NCBI GenBank assembly: GCA_019348395.1
Contig: JAHWJN010000012.1
Coordinates: 1-8,705, forward strand
Direction: 5' to 3'
From: Chloroflexota bacterium
GTDB lineage: Bacteria; Chloroflexota; Limnocylindria; QHBO01
Length of the DNA: 8,705 bases
The position numbers were made by a program, and so were the translations under genes. Shown here one piece after another: positions 1 through 8,705 of this stretch (positions are counted from its first letter, which is position 1; every line of letters starts with the position of its first letter). The notes below the pieces were generated by a model, which saw only the letters and a list, made by a program, of their open reading frames with translations, had not been told where the DNA came from and searched no databases.

Positions 1-346
1 CAGAAAGGCTGGTGAGGAGGGCGACCTGATCGCCCAGGGCGGCGTGGTCGCCGACCGTGACATCGGCGTGGGCGGTGATCCGCACCGCATCGGCGAGGGA
101 GGCGTTGGCGCCGATCCGCACATGGCCGGCGAAGGCCTCGAGGGTGAAGCGGTCGCCGATGCGGGCGCCGTGCTCGATGGTCACCCGAGCGCCGGGCGCG
201 ACGCGGATCCGGGCGCTGCGGCCGATGCGCACGCCCCGGCCGAGCTTCAGCCGCCCGCGCGCCCGCAAGCACAGGAGGAAGAGTCGCACCGCGCGAGCGT
301 AGCTGCGCTCCGGCCGGGTCGAGTTGAGGGCGTATAGGACCCACAA
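1..346 (-). CDS. Hexapeptide-repeat (left-handed beta-helix) acyltransferase-like protein, 3' end outside window
   Basis: The leftward frame encodes a basic N-terminal stretch (RLFLLCLRARGRLKLGRG) followed by imperfect hexapeptide turns such as VRIGRS, ARIRVA, VTIEHG, ARIGDR, VRIGAN and VTVGDH. This is the pattern of a left-handed beta-helix, as in WbbJ/DapH-type O-acetyltransferases acting on sugars or cell-surface polymers. About 115 residues are visible and the C-terminus lies beyond base 1, so catalytic residues cannot be checked. The start is uncertain. I use a TTG at 346; a GTG at 289 would begin right at the basic stretch and is equally plausible. No Shine-Dalgarno is visible. The gene follows the GH-like gene on the same strand after about 32 bases and could be the last gene of that transcript, but a functional link is only inferred. 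The fold is fairly sure; the enzyme activity is not. Confidence 0.66.
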   Translation of the reverse strand, partial: MWVLYALNSTRPERSYARAVRLFLLCLRARGRLKLGRGVRIGRSARIRVAPGARVTIEHGARIGDRFTLEAFAGHVRIGANASLADAVRITAHADVTVGDHAALGDQVALLTSLS

Positions 347-378
347 CTCGACCCGTTGGCGCGTTGACGACGCCCGGG

Positions 379-1548
379 TCAGGGCGCGCCGGGCGTCGCG
401 GCGGGATCGACGGGCGCGGCCGGATCGACGGGCGCGGCCGCGTCGAAGGCGACGACGTGGACCCAGGAGCCGCGGTCCATGTAGGGCATCGTCAGCGAGG
501 GGCCGATCACGCCCGTGAGCGACCTGATGGGGCGGCGCTCTTGCCGCATCCGCCAGCACGCAGGGTCCTCGCCGAACTGCTCGGTCAGCGTGGCGAGCGA
601 GCGGTCGTAGAGCTCCTGGCGGGCGTACGGCATCGGGCTCCCAGCGTCGAGGCGAGCCTGCCGGCACTGTTCGCCCCAGCCACAGAACATCGGTCGCGAC
701 CACCAGTCGGCCGCTGTTCGCGTGACGGATGGAGCCAGCCCATCGGACCGGAGCCGGTCAGCGTGATGCCCGACGGCGTCGTAGGGATTCGAGACGCCCG
801 GGCGGATGACGAGCGGCGGCGTGGTGAAGGAGCCGTCGACCGCGGTCTGCCCGTCGTACGACAACTCGAGGCTGAAGCCGCCCTGCGACGGGGCGTACCG
901 CAGCTCGGTGAAGGTCGCGGTGTCCACGCCGGTCCGCAGCTCGAGCACGGTCCACGGAGCCCCGTCCGGGTCATCGGGGTCGACGAGATCGGCTCCGCTG
1001 CCGGCCAGCACGAACGGCGCGGGGGTGAAGAACCAGTGGCCCCGACCGGGATGCGCGCCGCCGATGACGCCGATCGACGCGGGCTCGGCCGCCGGCTGGA
1101 GGACGCGACGCGGGTCGTCCGGCGACGGGTCGAACAGGATGCGCGCCGGCCAGGAGCTGTGGAACCGGCCGCCACCCCATCGAGCGGTGCCGCTGTACGG
1201 TCCGCCGAGCAGGCGGACGTCGGTGAGCCGCCCGGCGCCGGCGACCGTGGCGTCGAAGGCGATCTCATCCTCACGGCAGGTGAGCCGGACCGACTTGCGC
1301 TGCCAGGTGGTGCTCTCCGCCGCGACCGTCACGACGCAGCCGCCGTCGGCCTCCTCCACCACCGGCTCGCTGACGAACAGCGTGCCGTCCTGGCCGCGGT
1401 CGGAGTCGAGCCCCACCAGCAGCATGAGGCGCATCGGCCGCGCGCCGGTCCCGTCGTGCAGCCAGGCGACGGGATTCGACCGGTCGACCTCGAGCCTGTA
1501 GGCATCGGACTCCACGACCAGGCCCGCGTCGCCGGTGCTGACCTCCAT
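379..1548 (-). CDS. Glycoside-hydrolase-like protein with N-terminal beta-sandwich but no complete catalytic barrel
   Basis: This 389-residue protein starts with ATG at 1548, whose A is also the last base of the upstream gene's TGA, so translation is probably coupled. Residues about 10-255 read like the beta-sandwich domain that precedes the TIM barrel in GH31/GH36-type glycosidases. Segments include TWQRKSVRLT (81-90), GAGRLTDVRLLGG (104-116) and LVIRPGVSNPYDAV (246-259). Residues 282-293, WWSRPMFCGWGE plus Q, look like the first barrel strand of such enzymes. After about residue 325 the similarity stops: the tail (330-389) is unfamiliar and ends in an Ala-Pro-Val-Asp-Pro repeat. No catalytic Asp/Glu strand such as the IDDxW type follows. 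The other two leftward frames over 421-600 contain no barrel continuation either. It may be a decayed or deleted glycosidase, or a stand-alone carbohydrate-binding remnant. There is no signal peptide. Confidence 0.72.
   Translation of the reverse strand: MEVSTGDAGLVVESDAYRLEVDRSNPVAWLHDGTGARPMRLMLLVGLDSDRGQDGTLFVSEPVVEEADGGCVVTVAAESTTWQRKSVRLTCREDEIAFDATVAGAGRLTDVRLLGGPYSGTARWGGGRFHSSWPARILFDPSPDDPRRVLQPAAEPASIGVIGGAHPGRGHWFFTPAPFVLAGSGADLVDPDDPDGAPWTVLELRTGVDTATFTELRYAPSQGGFSLELSYDGQTAVDGSFTTPPLVIRPGVSNPYDAVGHHADRLRSDGLAPSVTRTAADWWSRPMFCGWGEQCRQARLDAGSPMPYARQELYDRSLATLTEQFGEDPACWRMRQERRPIRSLTGVIGPSLTMPYMDRGSWVHVVAFDAAAPVDPAAPVDPAATPGAP
404..439. repeat. Perfect 18-bp tandem duplication near the end of the GH-like gene
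   Basis: The unit GGATCGACGGGCGCGGCC occurs at 404-421 and again at 422-439. On the coding (minus) strand it adds an Ala-Ala-Pro-Val-Asp-Pro-type hexapeptide twice, at about residues 370-383 of the GH-like protein. Because the unit is a multiple of three it keeps the frame. Such a simple repeat fits a relaxed C-terminal tail rather than a folded domain. Confidence 0.85.
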
Positions 1549-3368
1549 CAGCGGATCGTCACGAGCGCCTCGGCGTGCTGGCCCAGCCGACGCGCTCCGA
1601 TCGTCACGTCGGCCGCGATCCGGGCTCGTCGAACGGCCTCGGAGCCCGTCTGCAGCGTGAAGCGGACGGTGGTCTCCGAGCGGCCCTCGAGCGTGGTCGA
1701 GCCCACCTGCGGTTCGGCCGTCCAGCCGGGCGGAACGGCGAGCTCCACCCGGGTCTCGCCGCCCTCGGGGAATGGATTGCGCACCCAGACGTCCAGCTCG
1801 ATCGAGGTACCGGCCGCGACCTCGCTGCGGTAGGGCTCGATCCGCGCGGCGAAGCCCTCCAGCCCCAGGTCCACCTCGTCGAGGGGCAGCAGCGAACGGT
1901 GGAGCTCCCGGAACAGCTCGCCGCGGGTCGCCAGCATCTCGAGGTAGTCCGGTGCGATCCAGCGGGGTGCCCAGTGGCCGCCCGCCATGAGCTCGGGTGC
2001 GAGCCGCCGGTAGAGCTCGGCGGACTCGACGAAGTCGTCGAGCGTGACCCGGTTCTGGTAGATGTAGTTCAGCCGCTCCGGGAAGGGATGGCGCCCCCAG
2101 CCGAAGTCCTGCTGGTCGCCGCTGATCACGACGCTGGTGCCGTCCGCCTCGAACGAGTAGGCGGCCGCGTAGGCGGTGTGGCCGCGGAGCTCGTGGATCG
2201 AGATCTCGTACTCCTCCCATCTCACCGTGCCGCCGATCGGGAGGACGCGGTCGACCGGTACCGGCTCGTACCAGAGGCAGGGCAGGTCGTACCGCTCCGG
2301 CCGCTCGATGACGTCGCTGAAGTTCTCCGGCGTCCAGACCTCGGTGCCCTCCACCTCCCGCAGCAGGTTGATCCCGGCGACGTGGTCGTCGTGATAGTGG
2401 GTGGGGATGACCACGTCGATGTGGTCGATGCCCTGCTCGCGCTTGAGCCGCTCGATGGTGTAGAGCCACGGACGGCGCCCCGCGCGGTCGGTCCCGGCGG
2501 GGAGCCCGGTGGTGAAGTCGTAGCCATAGTCGAAGAGCAGCGCCTTCCCGCTGTGGCTCTTCAGCACGTATCCGTACGCCTGGCTCGTGCGGTTGTGGAG
2601 CAGATGCGGCGTAAGCTCGACGTAGGGACGGTCGAGCCAGTCTTCGAGGTCGAGGTGGGAGCCGCGGACCTCGAGCAGGCGCCGGAGCTCGGTCACGGTG
2701 CGGTCGATGGCGGCGATCGGGTCGGTGATCGGTTCACCGTGAGATGGAAGCAGCAGCTCTGGCCGCTTCTCGCGCAGCGCCAGCAGCGACAGGATGGTCG
2801 AGGCGACGCCCTGGAGCTCGCCGTAGCTCCACATCGTGGCGGCCAGGGACCACACCTTGCCCGCGGCGTAGAGAAGGTCGCCGGTGAAGGCGACCCGCTG
2901 CCCGTCGATCTCGGCCCGGTAGCTGACCGAGCCGATGGTATGGCCCGGCGTCGGGATCGGCGTCAGCTCGAGCTCGCCGAAGCGCATCGGCCGGTACTCG
3001 GTCACCGTACCCGCGATCGGGACCGAGTTGAGCAGCGAGAAGCGATCCTGGCGAACGTTGTAGCTGTTCGAGATGTGGCGCGCCTGCCAGTGCTCGTTCG
3101 CGCCGGCCACCAGGTTCTGCTCGACCGGCGGCACCCAGATCGGGATCCCGGCGTCCACCGCCGATCGCAGGCCCTGCACCTGGTCGCGGTGGTGGTGGGT
3201 GACCAGCACGTCGCTGGCGTCCGGGAAGTTCGCGGCCCGGAGTCGCTCGAGCACGGTGCCGGAGCCGAAGTCCACGAGGTGGGTGCGGTCACCGTCGCGC
3301 AACGCGTAGACGTTGCACGTGTCGGGCAGCACCAGCAGGTTGGGCGTGATCTGGGCGAGGGCGGTCAC
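1548..3368 (-). CDS. Tandem metallo-beta-lactamase-fold hydrolase with C-terminal NEW3/Ig-like domain
   Basis: The 606-residue protein contains two MBL domains in series. Domain 1 (about 6-235) has THHHRDQ (His58, His60, Asp62, Gln63), PGHT (His143), TGD (Asp164) and SHG (His210). Domain 2 (about 255-490) has THYHDDH (His324, His326, Asp328, His329), GHT (His397), SGD (Asp418) and GGHW (His465), a full two-metal ligand set. Domain 1 has Gln where the last His of HxHxDH should be. Residues about 511-606 form an Ig-like beta domain similar to the NEW3 domain found behind alpha-galactosidases. The substrate is unknown; MBL folds hydrolyse esters, lactones, thioesters or phosphodiesters. I chose the GTG at 3368 (mature start near TALAQITPNLLVLPD) because the MBL fold begins there and because a -10 box and a palindrome lie just upstream. 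A GTG at 3422 would add 18 residues but place both inside the gene. It leads the leftward operon. Confidence 0.9.
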   Translation of the reverse strand: MTALAQITPNLLVLPDTCNVYALRDGDRTHLVDFGSGTVLERLRAANFPDASDVLVTHHHRDQVQGLRSAVDAGIPIWVPPVEQNLVAGANEHWQARHISNSYNVRQDRFSLLNSVPIAGTVTEYRPMRFGELELTPIPTPGHTIGSVSYRAEIDGQRVAFTGDLLYAAGKVWSLAATMWSYGELQGVASTILSLLALREKRPELLLPSHGEPITDPIAAIDRTVTELRRLLEVRGSHLDLEDWLDRPYVELTPHLLHNRTSQAYGYVLKSHSGKALLFDYGYDFTTGLPAGTDRAGRRPWLYTIERLKREQGIDHIDVVIPTHYHDDHVAGINLLREVEGTEVWTPENFSDVIERPERYDLPCLWYEPVPVDRVLPIGGTVRWEEYEISIHELRGHTAYAAAYSFEADGTSVVISGDQQDFGWGRHPFPERLNYIYQNRVTLDDFVESAELYRRLAPELMAGGHWAPRWIAPDYLEMLATRGELFRELHRSLLPLDEVDLGLEGFAARIEPYRSEVAAGTSIELDVWVRNPFPEGGETRVELAVPPGWTAEPQVGSTTLEGRSETTVRFTLQTGSEAVRRARIAADVTIGARRLGQHAEALVTIR

Positions 3369-3379
3369 TACAGGATTCG

Positions 3380-3385
3380 AGTCTA
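3380..3385 (-). promoter_or_regulatory. Candidate -10 box (TAGACT) for the leftward MBL/GH operon
   Basis: Read on the minus strand, TAGACT matches four of six bases of TATAAT and lies 11 bases before the GTG at 3368. Initiation would fall about 4 bases before the start codon, giving a nearly leaderless mRNA. No convincing -35 box is seen 17 bases upstream (GCACGA). Confidence 0.45.
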
Positions 3386-3388
3386 TCG

Positions 3389-3402
3389 AGCGGTATACCG
3401 CT
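3389..3402. promoter_or_regulatory. Perfect 14-bp palindrome AGCGGTATACCGCT, probable operator
   Basis: AGCGGTATACCGCT equals its own reverse complement over all 14 bases. It lies within the 17-base spacer just upstream of the leftward TAGACT box, a classic repressor position, and about 40 bases upstream of the rightward TAGCCT box. A GTATAC core with GC arms resembles operators of dimeric sugar-responsive regulators of the GntR or LacI kind. The family is a guess and no regulator gene is in the window. Confidence 0.6.
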
Positions 3403-3442
3403 TCGTGCGGCCGCTTCGGCACGCGCCGGCCACGCGGGCGCT

Positions 3443-3448
3443 AGCCTT
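3443..3448 (+). promoter_or_regulatory. Candidate -10 box (TAGCCT) for the kinase-aldolase operon
   Basis: TAGCCT fits the TAnnnT pattern and lies 8 bases before an ATG at 3457, a spacing that would place transcription start at or next to that ATG. No good -35 box is visible, so the call rests on the hexamer and its position alone. Confidence 0.35.
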
Positions 3449-3456
3449 GAGGCCGA

Positions 3457-3501
3457 TGCTGCCGCCAGCGGTGCGCAGATGCACCATTCCGCGCCGATGA
3501 C
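3457..3501 (+). CDS. Possible 14-residue leaderless leader peptide coupled to the kinase gene
   Basis: An ATG at 3457, 8 bases after TAGCCT, opens a frame encoding MLPPAVRRCTIPRR. It ends in TGA at 3499-3501, overlapping the kinase ATG (3497-3499) as ATGA. That overlap is the usual geometry of translational coupling and would explain how the kinase is translated without a Shine-Dalgarno. The peptide has no recognised function. In GC-rich DNA such a short frame can arise by chance. Confidence 0.3.
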
Positions 3502-4402
3502 CGCCGAGATCGTGTGCCTCGGGCTCGCGACGTCCGACCTGGTCGTGGAGCTGCCGCGCTGGCCGGATCCCGACGGGCGGATGGTGGTCGACGCCATCCA
3601 GCGGTCAGGTGGTGGCCCGGCGGCGACCGCCGCCGTGGCCGCGGCGCGGCTCGGACGGTCGGTGGCGATGTGCGGAGCCATCGGCGCCGATGCGGCCGGC
3701 ATCGCCGTGCGGGACGCGCTGGCGGCAGAGGGCGTGGACGTCGAGCTGCTGGTTCGTCGCCCTGGCGACACCCCGGAGAGCGTCATCCTGCTCGACGCGG
3801 AGCACGCCACCAGATCGATCCTCCATGCCCCGGGCGCCACGCTCGACGGGCTCTCGCCCAGAGCACTCGAGGCGGCCGGCGCGGCGACGTGGGTCCACGT
3901 CGACCACGTCGGGTGGCCGCTCGCCGCCGACCTGGATCCCGCGTCGCTGTCGGTCGATGCCGGCAATCCCATCGACGGCCTGTCGATCGAGGGCATCGGC
4001 GTCTACGCGCCAACGGCGGCGTCGCTGCGGTCGCGCTATCCGGACCGGGATCTCGGCGCCGCCGTGCAGGCGGCGCTCGACGACGGCGCGCTGCGCGTGG
4101 TCGCCACCCTGGGTGTCGGGGGCGCGCTGGCCGCCGACGCGGCCGGTGCCTGCCGGGTGGGGCCGGCGCCGGTCGCCGTTCGCTCGACCCTGGGGGCCGG
4201 TGACGTCTTCCACGGAGCGCTGCTGGCCGCCCTCGTCGCCGGATTCGAGCTGCCCGAGGCGCTGCGCCGTGCCAACCTGGCGGCGGCCCTGTCCTGCCGC
4301 GGGCTGGACGGCCGCGAGGCGATCCCCACCCCCGATGAGCTTGATGCCCACCTGGCCGCCGCGCCGCCCGCGGAGCCGATCATCCTGAGAGAGGTTCGAT
4401 GA
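3497..4402 (+). CDS. PfkB-family carbohydrate kinase, sulfofructose-kinase (YihV)-like
   Basis: This 301-residue kinase carries GGGPAATAAVAAARLG at 38-53, which matches the same stretch of E. coli YihV as I remember it, and the PfkB signature TLGAGDVFHGALL at 231-243 with catalytic base Asp236. Kinases of this family phosphorylate a sugar hydroxyl with ATP in the cytosol; YihV makes sulfofructose 1-phosphate. The residues that hold the sulfonate in YihV (Lys27, Asn109, Arg138, from memory) align with Arg28, His110 and a non-Arg position near His137-Gly139. Sulfofructose as substrate is therefore not supported. I chose the ATG at 3497 because the PfkB fold begins there (EIVCLGLATSDLVVELP) and a short upstream frame overlaps it as ATGA. 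An ATG at 3479 would add six residues. It overlaps the aldolase gene by 4 bases, so the two products very likely act in sequence. Family is sure; substrate is open. Confidence 0.9.
   Translation: MTAEIVCLGLATSDLVVELPRWPDPDGRMVVDAIQRSGGGPAATAAVAAARLGRSVAMCGAIGADAAGIAVRDALAAEGVDVELLVRRPGDTPESVILLDAEHATRSILHAPGATLDGLSPRALEAAGAATWVHVDHVGWPLAADLDPASLSVDAGNPIDGLSIEGIGVYAPTAASLRSRYPDRDLGAAVQAALDDGALRVVATLGVGGALAADAAGACRVGPAPVAVRSTLGAGDVFHGALLAALVAGFELPEALRRANLAAALSCRGLDGREAIPTPDELDAHLAAAPPAEPIILREVR
4389..4394 (+). promoter_or_regulatory. Shine-Dalgarno (GAGAGG) of the aldolase gene
   Basis: GAGAGG lies inside the last codons of the kinase gene, 4 bases before the aldolase ATG at 4399. It supports that start, and the aldolase is probably translated both by coupling and by its own binding site. 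Confidence 0.55.
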
Positions 4403-5310
4403 CCGACCAGACCTCGTATGCGCGCCTCGCCGAGATCGCCCGTTCGTCGGGCGCCTTCGCCATGGTGGCAATGGACCAGCGCGAGTCGCTGCGCGCGATG
4501 TTCGCCGAGAAGCTGTCCGGCGAGATTTCGCTGGAGCGGCGTGTCGCATTCAAGCTCGCCGTGGCGCGGATCCTGTCCCCCCATGCATCGGCCATGCTGA
4601 TCGACGCGCCGGAGGGTTTCGCCCCGATCCTGGAGGCGCGCGCGCTGGACCCCGGCTGCGGGCTGATCGTCGCGGCCGACGACCTGGTGCAACCCTTCGG
4701 CGGCGCGGTCGACGACACCGGCCTCGACGACTCGGTCGACCTCGTGGCGGCCGCCGAGGCCGGAGCGGTGGCGGCGAAGCTGCTCGTCATCTGGAAGCCC
4801 GATCGCTCGGCCGAGGCGCGCGCCGACCTTGTCGGCCGCTTCCTGGAGCGGTCTCGCGCCGCCGGACTGCCGGGGATCGTCGAAGGGGTCGTCCGACCTC
4901 CGTCGGGCACCGAGGAGCCGGACTGGAGCGAGCGGGAGGACGCCCTGCTGGAGGCGACTGCGGAGCTGGGGGCGCATCGGCCCGACCTGTACAAGGCGCA
5001 GGTGCCGTTCAACGGCCGCGGCGACCCTGATTCGGTGTCGGAGGCGTGCCGCCGGATGAGCGACTCGCTGCCGTGCCCGTGGGTCGTGCTCTCCTCGGGC
5101 GTCACCATCGACGATTTCCCGGCCGCGGTGGAAGCGGCCTGCCGCGGTGGCGCCTCCGGCTTCTTGGCGGGTAGGGCAGTGTGGCGCGACGCGATCGGCC
5201 CCGAGCCGGAGCCGGCGCTCCGCGCTCGGTCCGTCCCGCGCCTGCAGCGGCTCGGCGAGATCGTCGACGGGGCGGCTCGTCCCTGGACCGAGGCGCCCCG
5301 ACCGGTCTAA
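4399..5310 (+). CDS. Class I aldolase of the LacD/YihT family (sulfofructosephosphate-aldolase-like)
   Basis: The 303-residue protein follows E. coli YihT closely in remembered landmarks: SSGAFAMVAMDQRE (17-29), RILSPHASAMLID (57-69), LIVAADDL (89-96), KLLVIWK (127-133), VVRPP (164-168), DLYK (196-199), WVVLSSGV (228-235), SGFLAGRAVW (253-262) and RLQRLGEIVD (281-290). Lys199 aligns with the Schiff-base lysine (Lys193 in YihT). Arg259 of GRAVW aligns with YihT Arg253, a ligand-binding arginine. The length is near the usual 290. The family makes a retro-aldol cut of a ketose phosphate into DHAP and an aldehyde; for YihT the aldehyde is sulfolactaldehyde, for LacD glyceraldehyde 3-phosphate. 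Given the kinase next door, it most likely cleaves that kinase's product. Aldolase is firm; the substrate is not, and tagatose-bisphosphate aldolase is the main alternative. Its TAA interlocks with the stop of the convergent gene. Confidence 0.9.
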   Translation: MTDQTSYARLAEIARSSGAFAMVAMDQRESLRAMFAEKLSGEISLERRVAFKLAVARILSPHASAMLIDAPEGFAPILEARALDPGCGLIVAADDLVQPFGGAVDDTGLDDSVDLVAAAEAGAVAAKLLVIWKPDRSAEARADLVGRFLERSRAAGLPGIVEGVVRPPSGTEEPDWSEREDALLEATAELGAHRPDLYKAQVPFNGRGDPDSVSEACRRMSDSLPCPWVVLSSGVTIDDFPAAVEAACRGGASGFLAGRAVWRDAIGPEPEPALRARSVPRLQRLGEIVDGAARPWTEAPRPV

Positions 5311-5690
5311 TCGGCCTTCTTCTCCGCGCGAACGAAGACGCGCGGCAGTCCGGCACGCAGCTCGCGCACCGGCCGGGCGTCGGTCTCGTCGACGGTCGCG
5401 TTCGGTCCGGTGTCCTCGTCACGGACGCGTGGCCGGTCACTGGCCGTCGGCTGCAGGGTGTGGACGATGCGGGTCACCCGGTAGATCTGCCGGTCCCCGG
5501 TCGCGTCGATGAACTCCACGATGTCGTCCACGCACGGCAGCACCGCGCCGTGCTCCAGGTCCGCCGACCAGGCATGCTCTCCCTCGACCACCAGGGTCCA
5601 AGGCAGAGCCGCCGGCGGTCCGCCCCCCTGCTCCGGGCCCAGATCGGCGAGGTCGTCTCGTTCCGCGCCCTGCTCTTCCGCGTCGGTCAT
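5307..5690 (-). CDS. Small acidic hypothetical protein
   Basis: I do not recognise this 127-residue protein. The first about 28 residues are acidic and Gly/Pro-rich, probably disordered. Residues about 30-80 look like a small folded unit with alternating beta-strand-like segments (WTLVVEGEHAW, DDIVEFIDATGDRQIYRVTRIVHTLQ split at about residue 66). A second acidic linker (83-108) leads to GLPRVFVRAE (114-123). There is no signal peptide or membrane segment, so it is likely cytosolic. The ATG at 5690 is supported by a -10-like CAGAAT 6 bases upstream and by the acidic start MTDAEEQ. The frame stays open upstream, but that part is antisense to the AI-2E-family gene. Its TAG (5309-5307) shares bases with the aldolase TAA. 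It is divergent from the membrane-protein gene, with a gap of about 72 bases. Confidence 0.68.
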   Translation of the reverse strand: MTDAEEQGAERDDLADLGPEQGGGPPAALPWTLVVEGEHAWSADLEHGAVLPCVDDIVEFIDATGDRQIYRVTRIVHTLQPTASDRPRVRDEDTGPNATVDETDARPVRELRAGLPRVFVRAEKKAD

Positions 5691-5696
5691 GGATTG

Positions 5697-5702
5697 ATTC
5701 TG
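5697..5702 (-). promoter_or_regulatory. Candidate -10 box (CAGAAT) for the small hypothetical gene
   Basis: On the minus strand CAGAAT is followed by six bases and then the ATG at 5690. The spacing would give a leaderless transcript, in line with the missing Shine-Dalgarno. Confidence 0.35.
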
Positions 5703-5738
5703 ACGCAAGGCCGGTGCCGAAGCGGGCGACGTGACGCG

Positions 5739-5765
5739 CATCGGCCTGCCATGATCGCGCCGATG
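5739..5765. repeat. 7-bp inverted repeat around the start of the AI-2E-family gene
   Basis: CATCGGC at 5739-5745 is perfectly complementary to GCCGATG at 5759-5765, with 13 bases between. The right arm contains the ATG at 5763. In mRNA it could form a hairpin that hides this start; in DNA it could be a binding site. A 7-bp repeat is weak evidence by itself. Confidence 0.3.
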
Positions 5766-7154
5766 GAGCCCCGTCCCGACCCGACCAGAGCCCGGCGGGA
5801 GCGCTGGTGGCGCTCCGTCTTCATCATCCTGGCGACCGTCTACGTCGCCCTGCTGCTGCTCGGCCTGGTGCTGCAGATCCTGGGCGGGTTCTCCCAGATC
5901 GCGCTGACCATCTTCGTCGCCTGGCTGCTGGCATTCATCCTCTCGCCGGTGGTGGCCTGGATTCACGAGCGGTTTCGCGTCGGCCGGGGCGTGGCGATCG
6001 GGCTCGTGTACACCGCCACGCTGCTGATGGGCGGCGCGTTCCTCTTCTACGCCGCGGCATCCATCGCGGCCAACGTCGCCGCCATGGCCGCCGACTTCCC
6101 GCTCACTCGCGTCCGGATCATGGGCACCCTGCGGACGTGGGAGGACGCGCTCGATCTCGGCCGCTTCCAGCCGAACCTCGTCAGCCTCTACCAGGACATC
6201 GAGGACACGCTGGCCAGGACGCTGGGAGGCTCCGTCGAGGAGGTGCCGGAGGTCACCATCGGGGTCCTCGGTGGACTGGTGCTCGTGGTGATCCTCAGCC
6301 TGTACATGCTCGCCGACAGCGAGCGGATCATCGCCCGGCTGAAGCGGGTCGTCCCCACGCGCTACCGCGAGGAGGCCGACATCTTCGAGCGCAACGTGTC
6401 GCTGGCCTTCGGCGGCTTCCTCCGCGCGCAGGTGATCCTTGCCGGCATCCAGACGCTCCTCACCGTCGCGGTGATCGTGCTGGTCGGTCTGCCGTACGGG
6501 TTCTTCATCACGGCCGCCTCGGCGCTCGCCATGCTCATCCCGTTCTTCGGTCCACCGCTCGCCCTGGTGCCGCCGATCCTGGCCGTGGCCATCTTCGACC
6601 CCGGAGCGCTGCTCCTCGTCGGCCCGCTGCTGCTCGTGGTCCAGACCGTGCTCGTGAACTACCTCCAGCCGCGGCTCATGCAGGAGGCGCTCGGCATGCA
6701 TCCGCTGCTCGTGCTGATCGGCCTCCTGGTGGGTGCCCAGGTGGCGGGGGTCTTCGGTGCGTTGTTCGGGATCCCGGTTCTTGCCGTGCTGAACACGTTC
6801 TTCAACTACGCGGTGAACCTGCGGACGCTCGAGGAGAGCGAGCCTGATGAGCGCGACGACGTCATGGAGGAGCTGCGCCAGCAGCAGCCCGACGCGGCGC
6901 CCGAGGAGCTGGTGGCCATGGCCGCCGACCAGGTCGAGGAGGAGGAGGCGGCCGAGCGGGCGGAGGCGGAGCGGGCGGCCGCCGAGGTGGAGGAGCCCGA
7001 GCTCGCGTCCGACGATCTACGGGTCGCGGCAGGTGAGCTGCGGGTCGCCGCGGGGGAGCAGCGGCAGGCCGCCGGGCAGATGGGGGAGTCGGCCACCGAG
7101 CTGCGCGAGGCGGTCGATCGGCTCACCGACGAGCAGCGGGAGGAACGAGGCTAG
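5763..7154 (+). CDS. AI-2E/PerM-family membrane transporter with long charged C-terminal tail
   Basis: The 463-residue protein has the UPF0118 layout. Two N-terminal membrane helices (about 18-40 and 44-66) and a third (about 76-100) precede a soluble loop (103-160). Helices at 165-184, 222-242 and 245-278 follow, then a helix pair (about 282-298 and 312-345). Family landmarks include the Pro-rich PFFGPPLALVP (260-270) and NYLQPRLMQEALGMHPLL (299-316). Members export small solutes or ions; the AI-2 role applies to few of them, so the substrate is unknown. The cytosolic tail (about 352-463) is unusually long: a Glu/Ala-rich stretch (390-412), then six seven-residue repeats (419-460). The start is ATG 5763; ATG 5751 would add four residues. 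The TAG interlocks with the response regulator's stop. Confidence 0.88.
   Translation: MEPRPDPTRARRERWWRSVFIILATVYVALLLLGLVLQILGGFSQIALTIFVAWLLAFILSPVVAWIHERFRVGRGVAIGLVYTATLLMGGAFLFYAAASIAANVAAMAADFPLTRVRIMGTLRTWEDALDLGRFQPNLVSLYQDIEDTLARTLGGSVEEVPEVTIGVLGGLVLVVILSLYMLADSERIIARLKRVVPTRYREEADIFERNVSLAFGGFLRAQVILAGIQTLLTVAVIVLVGLPYGFFITAASALAMLIPFFGPPLALVPPILAVAIFDPGALLLVGPLLLVVQTVLVNYLQPRLMQEALGMHPLLVLIGLLVGAQVAGVFGALFGIPVLAVLNTFFNYAVNLRTLEESEPDERDDVMEELRQQQPDAAPEELVAMAADQVEEEEAAERAEAERAAAEVEEPELASDDLRVAAGELRVAAGEQRQAAGQMGESATELREAVDRLTDEQREERG
7017..7142 (+). repeat. Six consecutive heptad repeats in the membrane protein's tail
   Basis: Residues 419-460 divide into LRVAAGE, LRVAAGE, QRQAAGQ, MGESATE, LREAVDR and LTDEQRE. 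The first two are identical and the third is close, so this is a degenerate seven-residue (21-bp) repeat. The spacing of Leu/Met and Ala suggests a coiled coil or amphipathic helix. The DNA copies differ at third positions, so the duplication is not recent. Confidence 0.7.
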
Positions 7155-7522
7155 CGCTCGATCTCGCGGTGCAGTCGGCAGTTCCGCTGCACCAGGGCGT
7201 CCAGCTCGGCCACGGAGTACGGCTTGTCCCGGGCCGGCGACGTGAACGACAGGATCCGGTCGCCGGTCATGACCACGACCGGGATGGCGGAGAGCTGAGG
7301 ATCCTGTCCGGCCGCGCGACTCAGCTCCCATCCGTCCATGCGCGGCATCCGGACGTCGCTCAGGACGACGCAGGGAGCGGCACCGCTCCGCAGTCGGTCG
7401 AGCGCCTGCTCACCGTCCCCGGCGACCTCGACCCGGTGCCCGGCTTCCTCCAGGGCGTCCACGAACAGCTCGCGGACGCTCGGCTCGTCGTCGACCACCA
7501 GGACCGAGTGCGCCTTCGTCAT
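7151..7522 (-). CDS. Single-domain response regulator (CheY-like receiver)
   Basis: The 123-residue protein is one complete receiver domain with no output domain. The acidic pair is Asp11-Asp12 (VLVVDDEPSVREL), the phospho-acceptor is Asp56 (LSDVRMPRMDG), the switch Thr is Thr86 (VVVMTGD) and the conserved Lys is Lys100 (RDKPYS). All key residues are present, so it should accept phosphate from a histidine kinase or phosphotransfer protein. None is encoded in the window, so its partner is unknown. The region between Asp88 and Lys100 (RILSFTSPAR) is slightly unusual for the family. It starts at ATG 7522 with no Shine-Dalgarno and ends convergent with the membrane-protein gene on a shared CTAG. 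Confidence 0.93.
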   Translation of the reverse strand: MTKAHSVLVVDDEPSVRELFVDALEEAGHRVEVAGDGEQALDRLRSGAAPCVVLSDVRMPRMDGWELSRAAGQDPQLSAIPVVVMTGDRILSFTSPARDKPYSVAELDALVQRNCRLHREIER

Positions 7523-7567
7523 GCCGCACCGCCATGCACTCCGTGTGCCGATGCTGGGCCGGACCGA

Positions 7568-7573
7568 ATCGTA
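7568..7573 (-). promoter_or_regulatory. Candidate -10 box (TACGAT) for the response regulator gene
   Basis: On the minus strand TACGAT matches four of six bases of TATAAT and is 45 bases before the ATG at 7522. The region 17 bases upstream, where a -35 would be, falls inside the inverted repeat at 7584-7609; no clear -35 hexamer is seen there. Confidence 0.3.
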
Positions 7574-7583
7574 CGGGTCGGGG

Positions 7584-7609
7584 TGGTACCCGACTCCCCC
7601 GGGGTACCA
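7584..7609. promoter_or_regulatory. 8-bp inverted repeat (TGGTACCC / GGGTACCA), possible operator
   Basis: TGGTACCC at 7584-7591 is perfectly complementary to GGGTACCA at 7602-7609, with a 10-base spacer. The arms are 18 bases apart start to start, nearly two helical turns, so a dimer could bind both on one face. It lies in the divergent region between the response regulator and the CAP-domain gene and covers the likely -35 of the former. It has no T-run, so it is not a terminator. Confidence 0.45.
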
Positions 7610-7633
7610 GTGCCGGACGGGACCAGCGGGCTA

Positions 7634-7662
7634 CTGACCCGGCGGCCACCGGTCCGTAGGGT
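7634..7662 (+). promoter_or_regulatory. Candidate promoter of the CAP-domain gene
   Basis: CTGACC (7634-7639, four of six matches to TTGACA), a 17-base spacer and TAGGGT (7657-7662, three of six matches to TATAAT, TAnnnT form) make a plausible sigma-70-type promoter. Transcription would begin near 7669, giving a leader of about 50 bases. Confidence 0.45.
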
Positions 7663-7710
7663 GGTGGTGGGCGCCGAGCCGCCCGTACCCACGCCACCGA
7701 TCCGCATCCC

Positions 7711-7715
7711 GGAGA
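7711..7715 (+). promoter_or_regulatory. Shine-Dalgarno (GGAGA) of the CAP-domain gene
   Basis: GGAGA lies 4 bases before the ATG at 7720 and fixes this start. The codon run after it begins a typical export signal. Confidence 0.55.
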
Positions 7716-7719
7716 TCCG

Positions 7720-8705
7720 ATGGTTAAGCCGACTTCGCAGCCACGTGGCATCGCCCTCCGCGCCCTCGGCCTCGGACTGAGCGCCGTGCTCGCCGCGGTC
7801 GCGATCGCATGGAGCCCGTCGTCGACGACCGGGTGGAACCAGGGGGCTGCCGAGGGCACGCTCTGGCAGCTCATGAACGGAGCCCGGGTCAACAACGGCC
7901 TCGCGCCGCTGCAGTCTCACGGGACCATGGTGAGCCTGGCCCGATGGCGCAGCAGCGACATGCTGCAGCGCAACTACTTCAGTCACACGATTCCCGGGTG
8001 CGGCTGCCTCGTCTACGCCTACTACACCAGCAACGGCGTGGCCTACGACTGGGCCGGCGAGAACATCGCCTGGAACTCGGGCCGCACCGACGACTACTCC
8101 CCGGTTCGCGCTCACGAGCAGTTCATGGGCTCGACCGGACATCGTGCCAACGTGCTCGACCGCCGGTTCACGCACGGCGGCGTCGGTGCTGCCGCGGCCG
8201 ACAACAAGGAGTTCCTCGGCTACGTCCAGAACACCCGGATGTACACCCAGCTGTTCCTCCAGCCGAAGTCGGCACCCGCACCGGCTCCAGCCCCCGCGCC
8301 GGCCCCGGCACGCGCACCGGCTCCAGCCCCCGCGCCTGCGCCCGCGCCCCCGCCCAGCGGCAGCGGTGGCGGTGGCGGGAACGCCACGGCGCCGGTCGCC
8401 CAGCAGGCCCAGCTGGTCGCGTCGACGCCGGAGCCGAAGCCGGAGCCGAAGCCGGAGCCGAAGGTCGTGCGCATGGCCGTCCCGGCGCGCCCGACCTCGA
8501 CGGCCGGTCTGGACGGCGTGACGACTCAAGTCTCTCCGTCCACCTGGACGGTGGACATCGCCCGGCGCCTGACCGACGAGGAGCGTGCCGCTCAGCGAGC
8601 CGCTACCCTCACGGTGACGAACTCGCGGGCCGACACGGCAGCGGTCGCCGATCCGATCGACGTCGACCCCGTCGCGCTGGAGGTGCGCACCCCCGATCGG
8701 TCCGA
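7720..8705 (+). CDS. Secreted CAP/SCP-domain (YkwD-like) protein, 3' end outside window
   Basis: The frame is open from ATG 7720 to the window edge, 328 codons. Residues 1-31 look like a signal peptide or anchor: basic residues Lys3, Arg9 and Arg14, then the hydrophobic ALGLGLSAVLAAVAIAW. Residues about 46-180 form the CAP domain, with NYFSHT (His89), AGENIAW (Glu114), AHEQ (His132, Glu133) and STGHRANVLD (His141). These are the cavity residues of the YkwD/SCP family. An Ala-Pro run (about 185-208), a Gly/Ser patch and three Glu-Pro-Lys-Pro repeats (about 236-248) link to a C-terminal part (from about 260) I do not recognise. That tail has beta-like TWTVDIARRLTDEERAAQ and ATLTVTNSRADTAAVA. 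Bacterial CAP proteins are extracellular with poorly known roles; Pro-rich linkers suggest crossing the cell wall or envelope. The pair Cys94 and Cys96 in PGCGCL is unusual here. Confidence 0.88.
   Translation, partial: MVKPTSQPRGIALRALGLGLSAVLAAVAIAWSPSSTTGWNQGAAEGTLWQLMNGARVNNGLAPLQSHGTMVSLARWRSSDMLQRNYFSHTIPGCGCLVYAYYTSNGVAYDWAGENIAWNSGRTDDYSPVRAHEQFMGSTGHRANVLDRRFTHGGVGAAAADNKEFLGYVQNTRMYTQLFLQPKSAPAPAPAPAPAPARAPAPAPAPAPAPPPSGSGGGGGNATAPVAQQAQLVASTPEPKPEPKPEPKVVRMAVPARPTSTAGLDGVTTQVSPSTWTVDIARRLTDEERAAQRAATLTVTNSRADTAAVADPIDVDPVALEVRTPDRS
8278..8336 (+). repeat. Direct 23-bp repeat encoding the Ala-Pro linker
   Basis: GCACCGGCTCCAGCCCCCGC followed by GCC occurs at 8278-8300 and again identically at 8314-8336, a 36-base period. 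It encodes alternating Ala-Pro residues. Identity at third positions shows a recent in-frame duplication, so the linker length probably varies between strains. Confidence 0.8.
8428..8463 (+). repeat. Three perfect 12-bp tandem units (CCGGAGCCGAAG)
   Basis: CCGGAGCCGAAG occurs at 8428-8439, 8440-8451 and 8452-8463 with no mismatch. It encodes Pro-Glu-Pro-Lys three times, an extended charged spacer like the TonB-type EPKP linker. Confidence 0.9.

Follow-up and report, generated by a model that had tools for sequence, protein, structure and literature searches.

A YihT-like aldolase and a PfkB-family kinase in a likely glycan-degradation locus of Chloroflexota: a candidate phosphorylate-then-cleave module outside sulfoglycolysis

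Does a kinase-aldolase pair related to the sulfoglycolytic enzymes YihV and YihT have to act on a sulfonated sugar? The question is raised by two genes of a Chloroflexota bacterium of the Limnocylindria (assembly GCA_019348395.1, 59% complete), which lie in a stretch of 8,705 nucleotides, here called the window, that represents bases 1-8705 of the 15,907-base contig C33 (JAHWJN010000012.1). On balance, we favour the view that the pair forms a module that phosphorylates and then cleaves a ketose without a sulfonate group, in a likely glycan locus of Limnocylindria-type Chloroflexota. Genes were called with a simple codon-score script, not a standard gene finder, and the pair has the following features:

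3497..4402, plus strand: PfkB-family ketose kinase, first gene of the pair, 301 amino acids (aa) (PF00294, 119 bits; GAGD at residues 233-236)
3827..3829, plus strand: codon of kinase Ala111, in the column that holds Arg in sulfoquinovose-marker kinases
4399..4402, plus strand: ATGA, read from the sequence, in which the kinase stop overlaps the aldolase start
4399..5310, plus strand: YihT-like class I (Schiff-base) aldolase, 303 aa, a predicted ketose-1-phosphate aldolase giving dihydroxyacetone phosphate (DHAP)
4486..4488, plus strand: aldolase Ser30 of the motif DQRES, at the place of YihT Ala26 (alignment column)
4993..4995, plus strand: aldolase Lys199 of DLYK, the predicted Schiff-base lysine, invariant in the aligned aldolases

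A first-pass annotation had described kinase and aldolase as fused at ATGA. The overlap at 4399-4402 is there, but it joins two separate genes and is not a fusion. The annotation had also reported no other sulfoglycolysis genes, and in agreement with this YihS, YihU, YihQ, YihR and YihO had no match over threshold on the window's contig (YihP was not queried apart).

The best solved-structure match of the aldolase was YihT of Escherichia coli (41% identity, 219.5 bits), with the next other enzyme at 66.5 bits, and the stretches DLYK and GRAVW, which the first pass had pointed out as YihT-like, are indeed present in both proteins. It has the class I DeoC/LacD fold with the predicted Schiff-base Lys in DLYK, and its predicted structural model resembles the YihT fold, with YihT ahead of LacD by about 7 Z units. 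The tagatose-1,6-bisphosphate aldolase LacD and the DUF2090-type sulfohexulose-1-phosphate aldolase (8tnf) are, like the window aldolase, members of the class I DeoC/LacD family, and a LacC/LacD-like pair could use tagatose-6-phosphate or fructose-6-phosphate and cleave the 1,6-bisphosphate. This seems highly improbable, since LacD entries reached at most 59 bits (DUF2090-type aldolase at most 66 bits) and thus trail YihT by more than 150 bits in addition to the Z score, and the lacD equivalog model gave merely 37 bits against a cut-off of 432. Further, neither a galactose-6-phosphate isomerase nor a lactose phosphotransferase-system gene turned up in the locus, as judged from its gene calls and family matches and with no search aimed at them. 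The comparison with LacD proposed in the first pass therefore left the aldolase outside the LacD type. An aldolase from a Candidatus Limnocylindrales assembly (P0020) is 78% identical to it.

The kinase shows a looser likeness to the sulfofructose kinase YihV (PDB 7ag6). Both are PfkB-family proteins with a GAGD motif, YihV was the best solved-structure match (78.8 bits, with ribokinases close at 75-76 bits), and a 16-residue stretch, GGGPAATAAVAAARLG, occurs unchanged at residue 38 of the window kinase and residue 37 of E. coli YihV. This is the longest identical run of the two proteins and bears out the long YihV-matching stretch noticed earlier. However, overall identity is 33%, and in the kinase tree (midpoint root) the window kinase was split from the YihV group at 100/100 and fell into a separate PfkB clade, sister to the kinases of actinobacterial sulfoquinovose loci. 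Relatedness to YihV therefore stands, whereas orthology does not. The actinobacterial kinases, which come from loci with SftI- and Suy-like genes, share 36-50% identity (tblastn) and a DHVG-type motif with the window kinase, but they adjoin sulfoquinovose markers and differ at the place of Ala111. Arg occupies this column in 39/40 kinases of the actinobacterial-type marker loci, and Ala or Tyr in all four kinases of the window group. The column, one of 11 kinase columns that passed our filter, adjoins an alignment gap, and its pattern suggests that Ala111 may have a role in substrate choice. Two other positions, Asn109 and Arg138 of YihV, which we take to be its sulfonate contacts, are His and Gly in the window kinase. 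As a test for sulfofructose they were dropped, because judging from aligned motifs the kinases of actinobacterial sulfoquinovose loci miss both too, so that their absence alone is no argument against sulfofructose.

The surroundings of related aldolases were compared in 89 loci. Of the source material, genome_contigs supplied 80 loci and related genomes 14 stretches, to which the yih region of E. coli K-12 was added. Duplicates (L046, L065, L086 and L100) were left out, and the split aldolase of the same-genus genome G003 (L034, L035) was kept outside the aldolase tree and the counts. Each locus stretch, covering less than 10 kb on a side near contig ends, was searched by tblastn for eight sulfoquinovose markers, namely SftI, YihS, YihQ, an IolG-like oxidoreductase, SuyA, SuyB, SlcC and ComC (for these markers, GH188, Suy and Slc are names that we in part presume). 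None of the eight markers was found by this search in the 11 loci of the window's aldolase set, which we call a grade, as it may not be a single clade. By comparison, markers were present in 50/65 loci of two sulfo clades: 32/36 in clade S2 (freshwater Actinobacteria) and 18/29 in clade S1 without six proteobacterial loci, whose addition gives 50/71. These six S1-nested loci (L089, L104, L105, L108, L115 and L120), with Ser or Gly in their aldolases, had a marker in 0/6; the counts were 0/2 for two further Chloroflexota loci (L037 and L039) and 0/5 for the far outgroup. L117 was counted as a marker locus on a single, weak ComC match (38%), YihQ matches in actinobacterial loci were merely 26-28% identical, and the loci that supplied sulfoquinovose queries (L045, L052, L058, L072, L077, L079 and L081) match by construction. 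The same holds for the sources of the glycan-type queries (L031, L032, L033, L035, L036, L046 and L050). Because these include some of the loci counted, the finding of glycan-type markers in 8/11 window-grade loci is partly circular and was set aside as evidence of enrichment; the 0/11 count is unaffected. Thus no sulfoquinovose isomerase, sulfoquinovosidase or sulfolactate enzyme was linked to the pair, and the neighbourhood comparison upholds the earlier claim of YihV/YihT-like enzymes outside a sulfoglycolysis cluster.

A residue difference accompanies this difference in gene content. YihT (PDB 7ag1, 7ag7 and 1to3), the sulfofructose-1-phosphate aldolase of E. coli and Salmonella, has Ala26 where the window aldolase has Ser30. 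Ala was found at this place in 50/50 marker loci and Ser in 10/10 readable loci of the window grade (the eleventh, L038, is too short for reading residue 30). Across the 89 loci, Ala followed DQRE in the 50 marker loci and 15 others; the 23 further loci in which the residue could be read had Ser, Gly, Asn or Thr there, and a marker was seen at none of these 23. Among the 120 aldolase relatives listed, 110 had DQRES, two had DQRDS and seven gave no motif; the single DQREA sequence (P0120) clusters with the sulfo clades. This column was one of eight aldolase columns that passed the filter, and the sole one to separate both sets without a shared residue; Ala at this place, which the window aldolase lacks, is a correlate found in the present analysis and not an established criterion. 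In a 56-row aldolase tree the window group lay outside S1, S2 and P0120 together at 96/87, and in the 89-row tree it lay in an open polytomy. Several points qualify this picture. The Ser30 and Ala111 patterns are correlations among related sequences, picked from several columns, the six proteobacterial loci were set apart only after their residue had been seen, and approximately unbiased (AU) tests rejected neither S1 and S2 alone as one clade (p 0.3) nor the window group together with S1 (p 0.174).

Could the pair nevertheless act on sulfofructose and its 1-phosphate? The nearest characterised aldolase is YihT, many listed relatives of both proteins have been named sulfofructosephosphate aldolase or sulfofructose kinase by JGI, and kinases of the same PfkB clade occur in loci with SftI- and Suy-like genes. 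Homologues of YihQ and YihR are missing from Arthrobacter clusters too (PMC8873060), and sulfoquinovosidases are among the fold matches of the predicted model of the glycoside hydrolase (GH)-like protein encoded beside the pair. We regard a sulfofructose substrate as unlikely all the same, given the lack of markers in all 11 grade loci, Ser30 in place of Ala, and a kinase without the Arg kept by marker-locus kinases. In addition, protein searches of eight related genomes (59-92% complete, no built-in positive control) gave no match to YihQ, YihS or SuyB-like proteins. SftI had two weak protein matches (2/8 genomes) and family-model matches in 3/8, all below the cut-off.

Among the marker loci, Planktophila-type clusters of freshwater Actinobacteria (L048, L049, L051, L055, L058, L060, L068, L077, L080-L083, L085 and L107) join an SftI-like isomerase, a kinase, a YihT-like aldolase, an IolG-like oxidoreductase and Suy/Slc-like genes, most also with a ComC-like gene and a YeiH-type exporter. 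To judge by gene content, these clusters likely encode a near-complete route from sulfoquinovose to sulfite, in which sulfolactaldehyde dehydrogenase was not sought. The SftI-like isomerase of L072 scored 264 bits, below the cut-off of 700. We found no open-licence paper naming both Planktophila and sulfoquinovose.

The kinase partner differs among relatives of the aldolase. In Actinophytocola (L050 and L067) and in a Hyphomicrobiales assembly (L096), all three loci being of the window grade, the gene that overlaps the aldolase by ATGA encodes an FGGY-family kinase instead of a PfkB kinase. This points to a phosphorylated ketose as what the aldolase requires, and favours a phosphorylate-then-cleave logic. 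This logic, put forward in the first-pass annotation, is therefore likely, whereas the "undescribed sugar pathway" proposed with it can still only be surmised because no substrate could be assigned. In the mechanism that we propose, the kinase would phosphorylate C1 of a ketose, probably not sulfofructose, and the aldolase would then split the ketose-1-phosphate, derived from glycan sugars, into DHAP and an aldehyde. We infer the order of the reactions, the C1 phosphorylation, the DHAP product and the exclusion of sulfofructose. Candidate substrates would be a hexulosonate, a pentulose or a 6-deoxyketose, whose cleavage would release tartronate semialdehyde, glycolaldehyde or lactaldehyde, respectively; the first of these aldehydes could suit a hydroxypyruvate-isomerase-like gene of the locus.

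A precedent for a role without sulfoquinovose in this family is offered by E. coli Nissle, whose short yihTUVW cassette is reported not to be induced by sulfoquinovose (PMC12608037). As in the window, YihT and YihV relatives occur there without an isomerase or sulfoquinovosidase, but the cassette is far closer to YihT and apparently has an Ala26-type motif, to judge by L098 and L113, whose gene content suggests that they may be the cassette. In place of YihQ and YihS, the enterobacterial loci L090, L094, L095, L098, L101, L113, L117 and L122 hold, beside relatives of YihT, YihU and YihV, a zinc alcohol dehydrogenase, two MFS transporters and a gene named epimerase-like by eye.

What, then, is the locus for? 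On the other side of the pair's start lie the following features, of which the first two are divergent to the pair:

1548..3368, minus strand: double metallo-beta-lactamase-fold (MBL) protein (PF00753 and PF12706; C-terminal beta-rich part seen by eye)
579..1548, minus strand: GH31/GH36-like glycosidase, N-terminal ~320 residues, with the barrel half on contig C211 at 16521-17327, minus strand
1..578, no strand assigned: fragment of a hexapeptide acyltransferase past the break in the GH gene, probably from a chimeric join or a rearrangement

The double MBL protein had been recognised in the first pass, and its two Pfam matches agree; relatives occur in G003, G012, G112, G115 and G123. The "barrel-less GH-like protein", on the other hand, was an effect of the contig join. 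The barrel half that it lacks lies at the end of C211 of the same genome (residues 321-583, with 74% identity to a same-genus relative), and of the 120 relatives listed, 112 have lengths of 561-616 aa and eight are shorter. The protein has the beta-sandwich and barrel fold of GH31/GH36 (clan GH-D), with the Asp in KVDF. After the barrel half, C211 carries an Asp/Glu-racemase-like gene (83% to G003) and then a DUF1537 kinase. Its opposite strand encodes XylA-like, xylulokinase (494.6 bits, cut-off 380), ROK, SIS, GH38, GH1, GH127-like (26.3 bits, cut-off 24.9) and hydroxypyruvate-isomerase-like proteins, and the contig further holds a methyltransferase-domain gene and others. Since C33 and C211 share the broken GH gene, and G003 has the gene order MBL, GH-like, racemase-like, DUF1537, we infer that the two contigs would form one locus. 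G012, G112 and G123 share much of the C211 gene set, while G003, Kutzneria and Actinophytocola have parts of it. It is likely that the kinase-aldolase pair sits in a glycan-degradation locus. Longest-contig values common to the relative sets numbered 22 for aldolase and kinase, 4 for aldolase and GH-like protein and 9 for kinase and GH-like protein (35, 31 and 12 rows of 120 each), a mere hint of shared contigs. The downstream gene of L119 resembles the Asp/Glu-racemase-like protein by eye (LLHTVPAL) and was unlisted by tblastn at the threshold used.

The C211 genes also bear on a carboxylate counterpart of sulfoglycolysis, in which the kinase would place a phosphate on C1 of a uronic-acid-derived hexulosonate and the aldolase would cleave the product into DHAP and tartronate semialdehyde, the latter being processed by the hydroxypyruvate-isomerase-like and DUF1537 proteins. 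Both genes are present on C211 (G000), with relatives of both in the G112 stretch. A tartrate-dehydrogenase-family gene adjoins the aldolase in G123 and lies one gene away in L096, and UxaC, the uronate isomerase family, was matched in none of the eight related genomes as against 7/14 control genomes. In this specific form we nevertheless consider the route distinctly unlikely. The isomerase-like protein scored 217 bits, below the cut-off of 353, and also resembles 2-oxo-tetronate isomerase (196 bits); no locus gene has been shown to act on uronates, tartronate semialdehyde reductase was not sought, and the Asp/Glu-racemase-like protein is without a known role. The open-licence literature yielded no paper on a tartronate semialdehyde kinase-aldolase uronate route, nor on Limnocylindria with sulfoquinovose.

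More broadly, the non-sulfonated module that we favour may, as a tentative proposal, belong to an undescribed counterpart of sulfoglycolysis. In it, isomerisation of a plant or fungal glycan sugar would yield a ketose, possibly a hexulosonate derived from a uronate; after phosphorylation at C1, a YihT-type aldolase would cleave the product, releasing DHAP together with tartronate semialdehyde or some other aldehyde. PfkB and FGGY kinase modules would have been swapped between lineages, and the sulfo-EMP enzymes would represent a single specialised offshoot within a broader family, recognisable by the replacement of Ser by Ala in the DQRE motif. If true, the sulfofructosephosphate aldolase and sulfofructose kinase labels given by JGI to many relatives overstate sulfoquinovose breakdown in soil Chloroflexota, and the residue in DQREx (Ser or Ala), read together with gene context, would help to separate sulfo from non-sulfo members. 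Sulfoglycolysis would then sit within a wider phosphorylate-then-cleave family with directly testable substrates.

In loci of different lineages, namely L089, L104 and L108 (three of the six S1-nested loci), L096 and L033, YihT-like aldolases with a Ser-type DQRE motif have a tartrate-dehydrogenase-family gene in the same stretch. Elsewhere in the window, a small protein of 127 aa (5307-5690, minus strand) is without a Pfam match but has a G003 counterpart (L034_g5) in the equivalent location, and positions 7720-8703 encode a CAP-domain protein with a Pro/Ala-rich low-complexity stretch.
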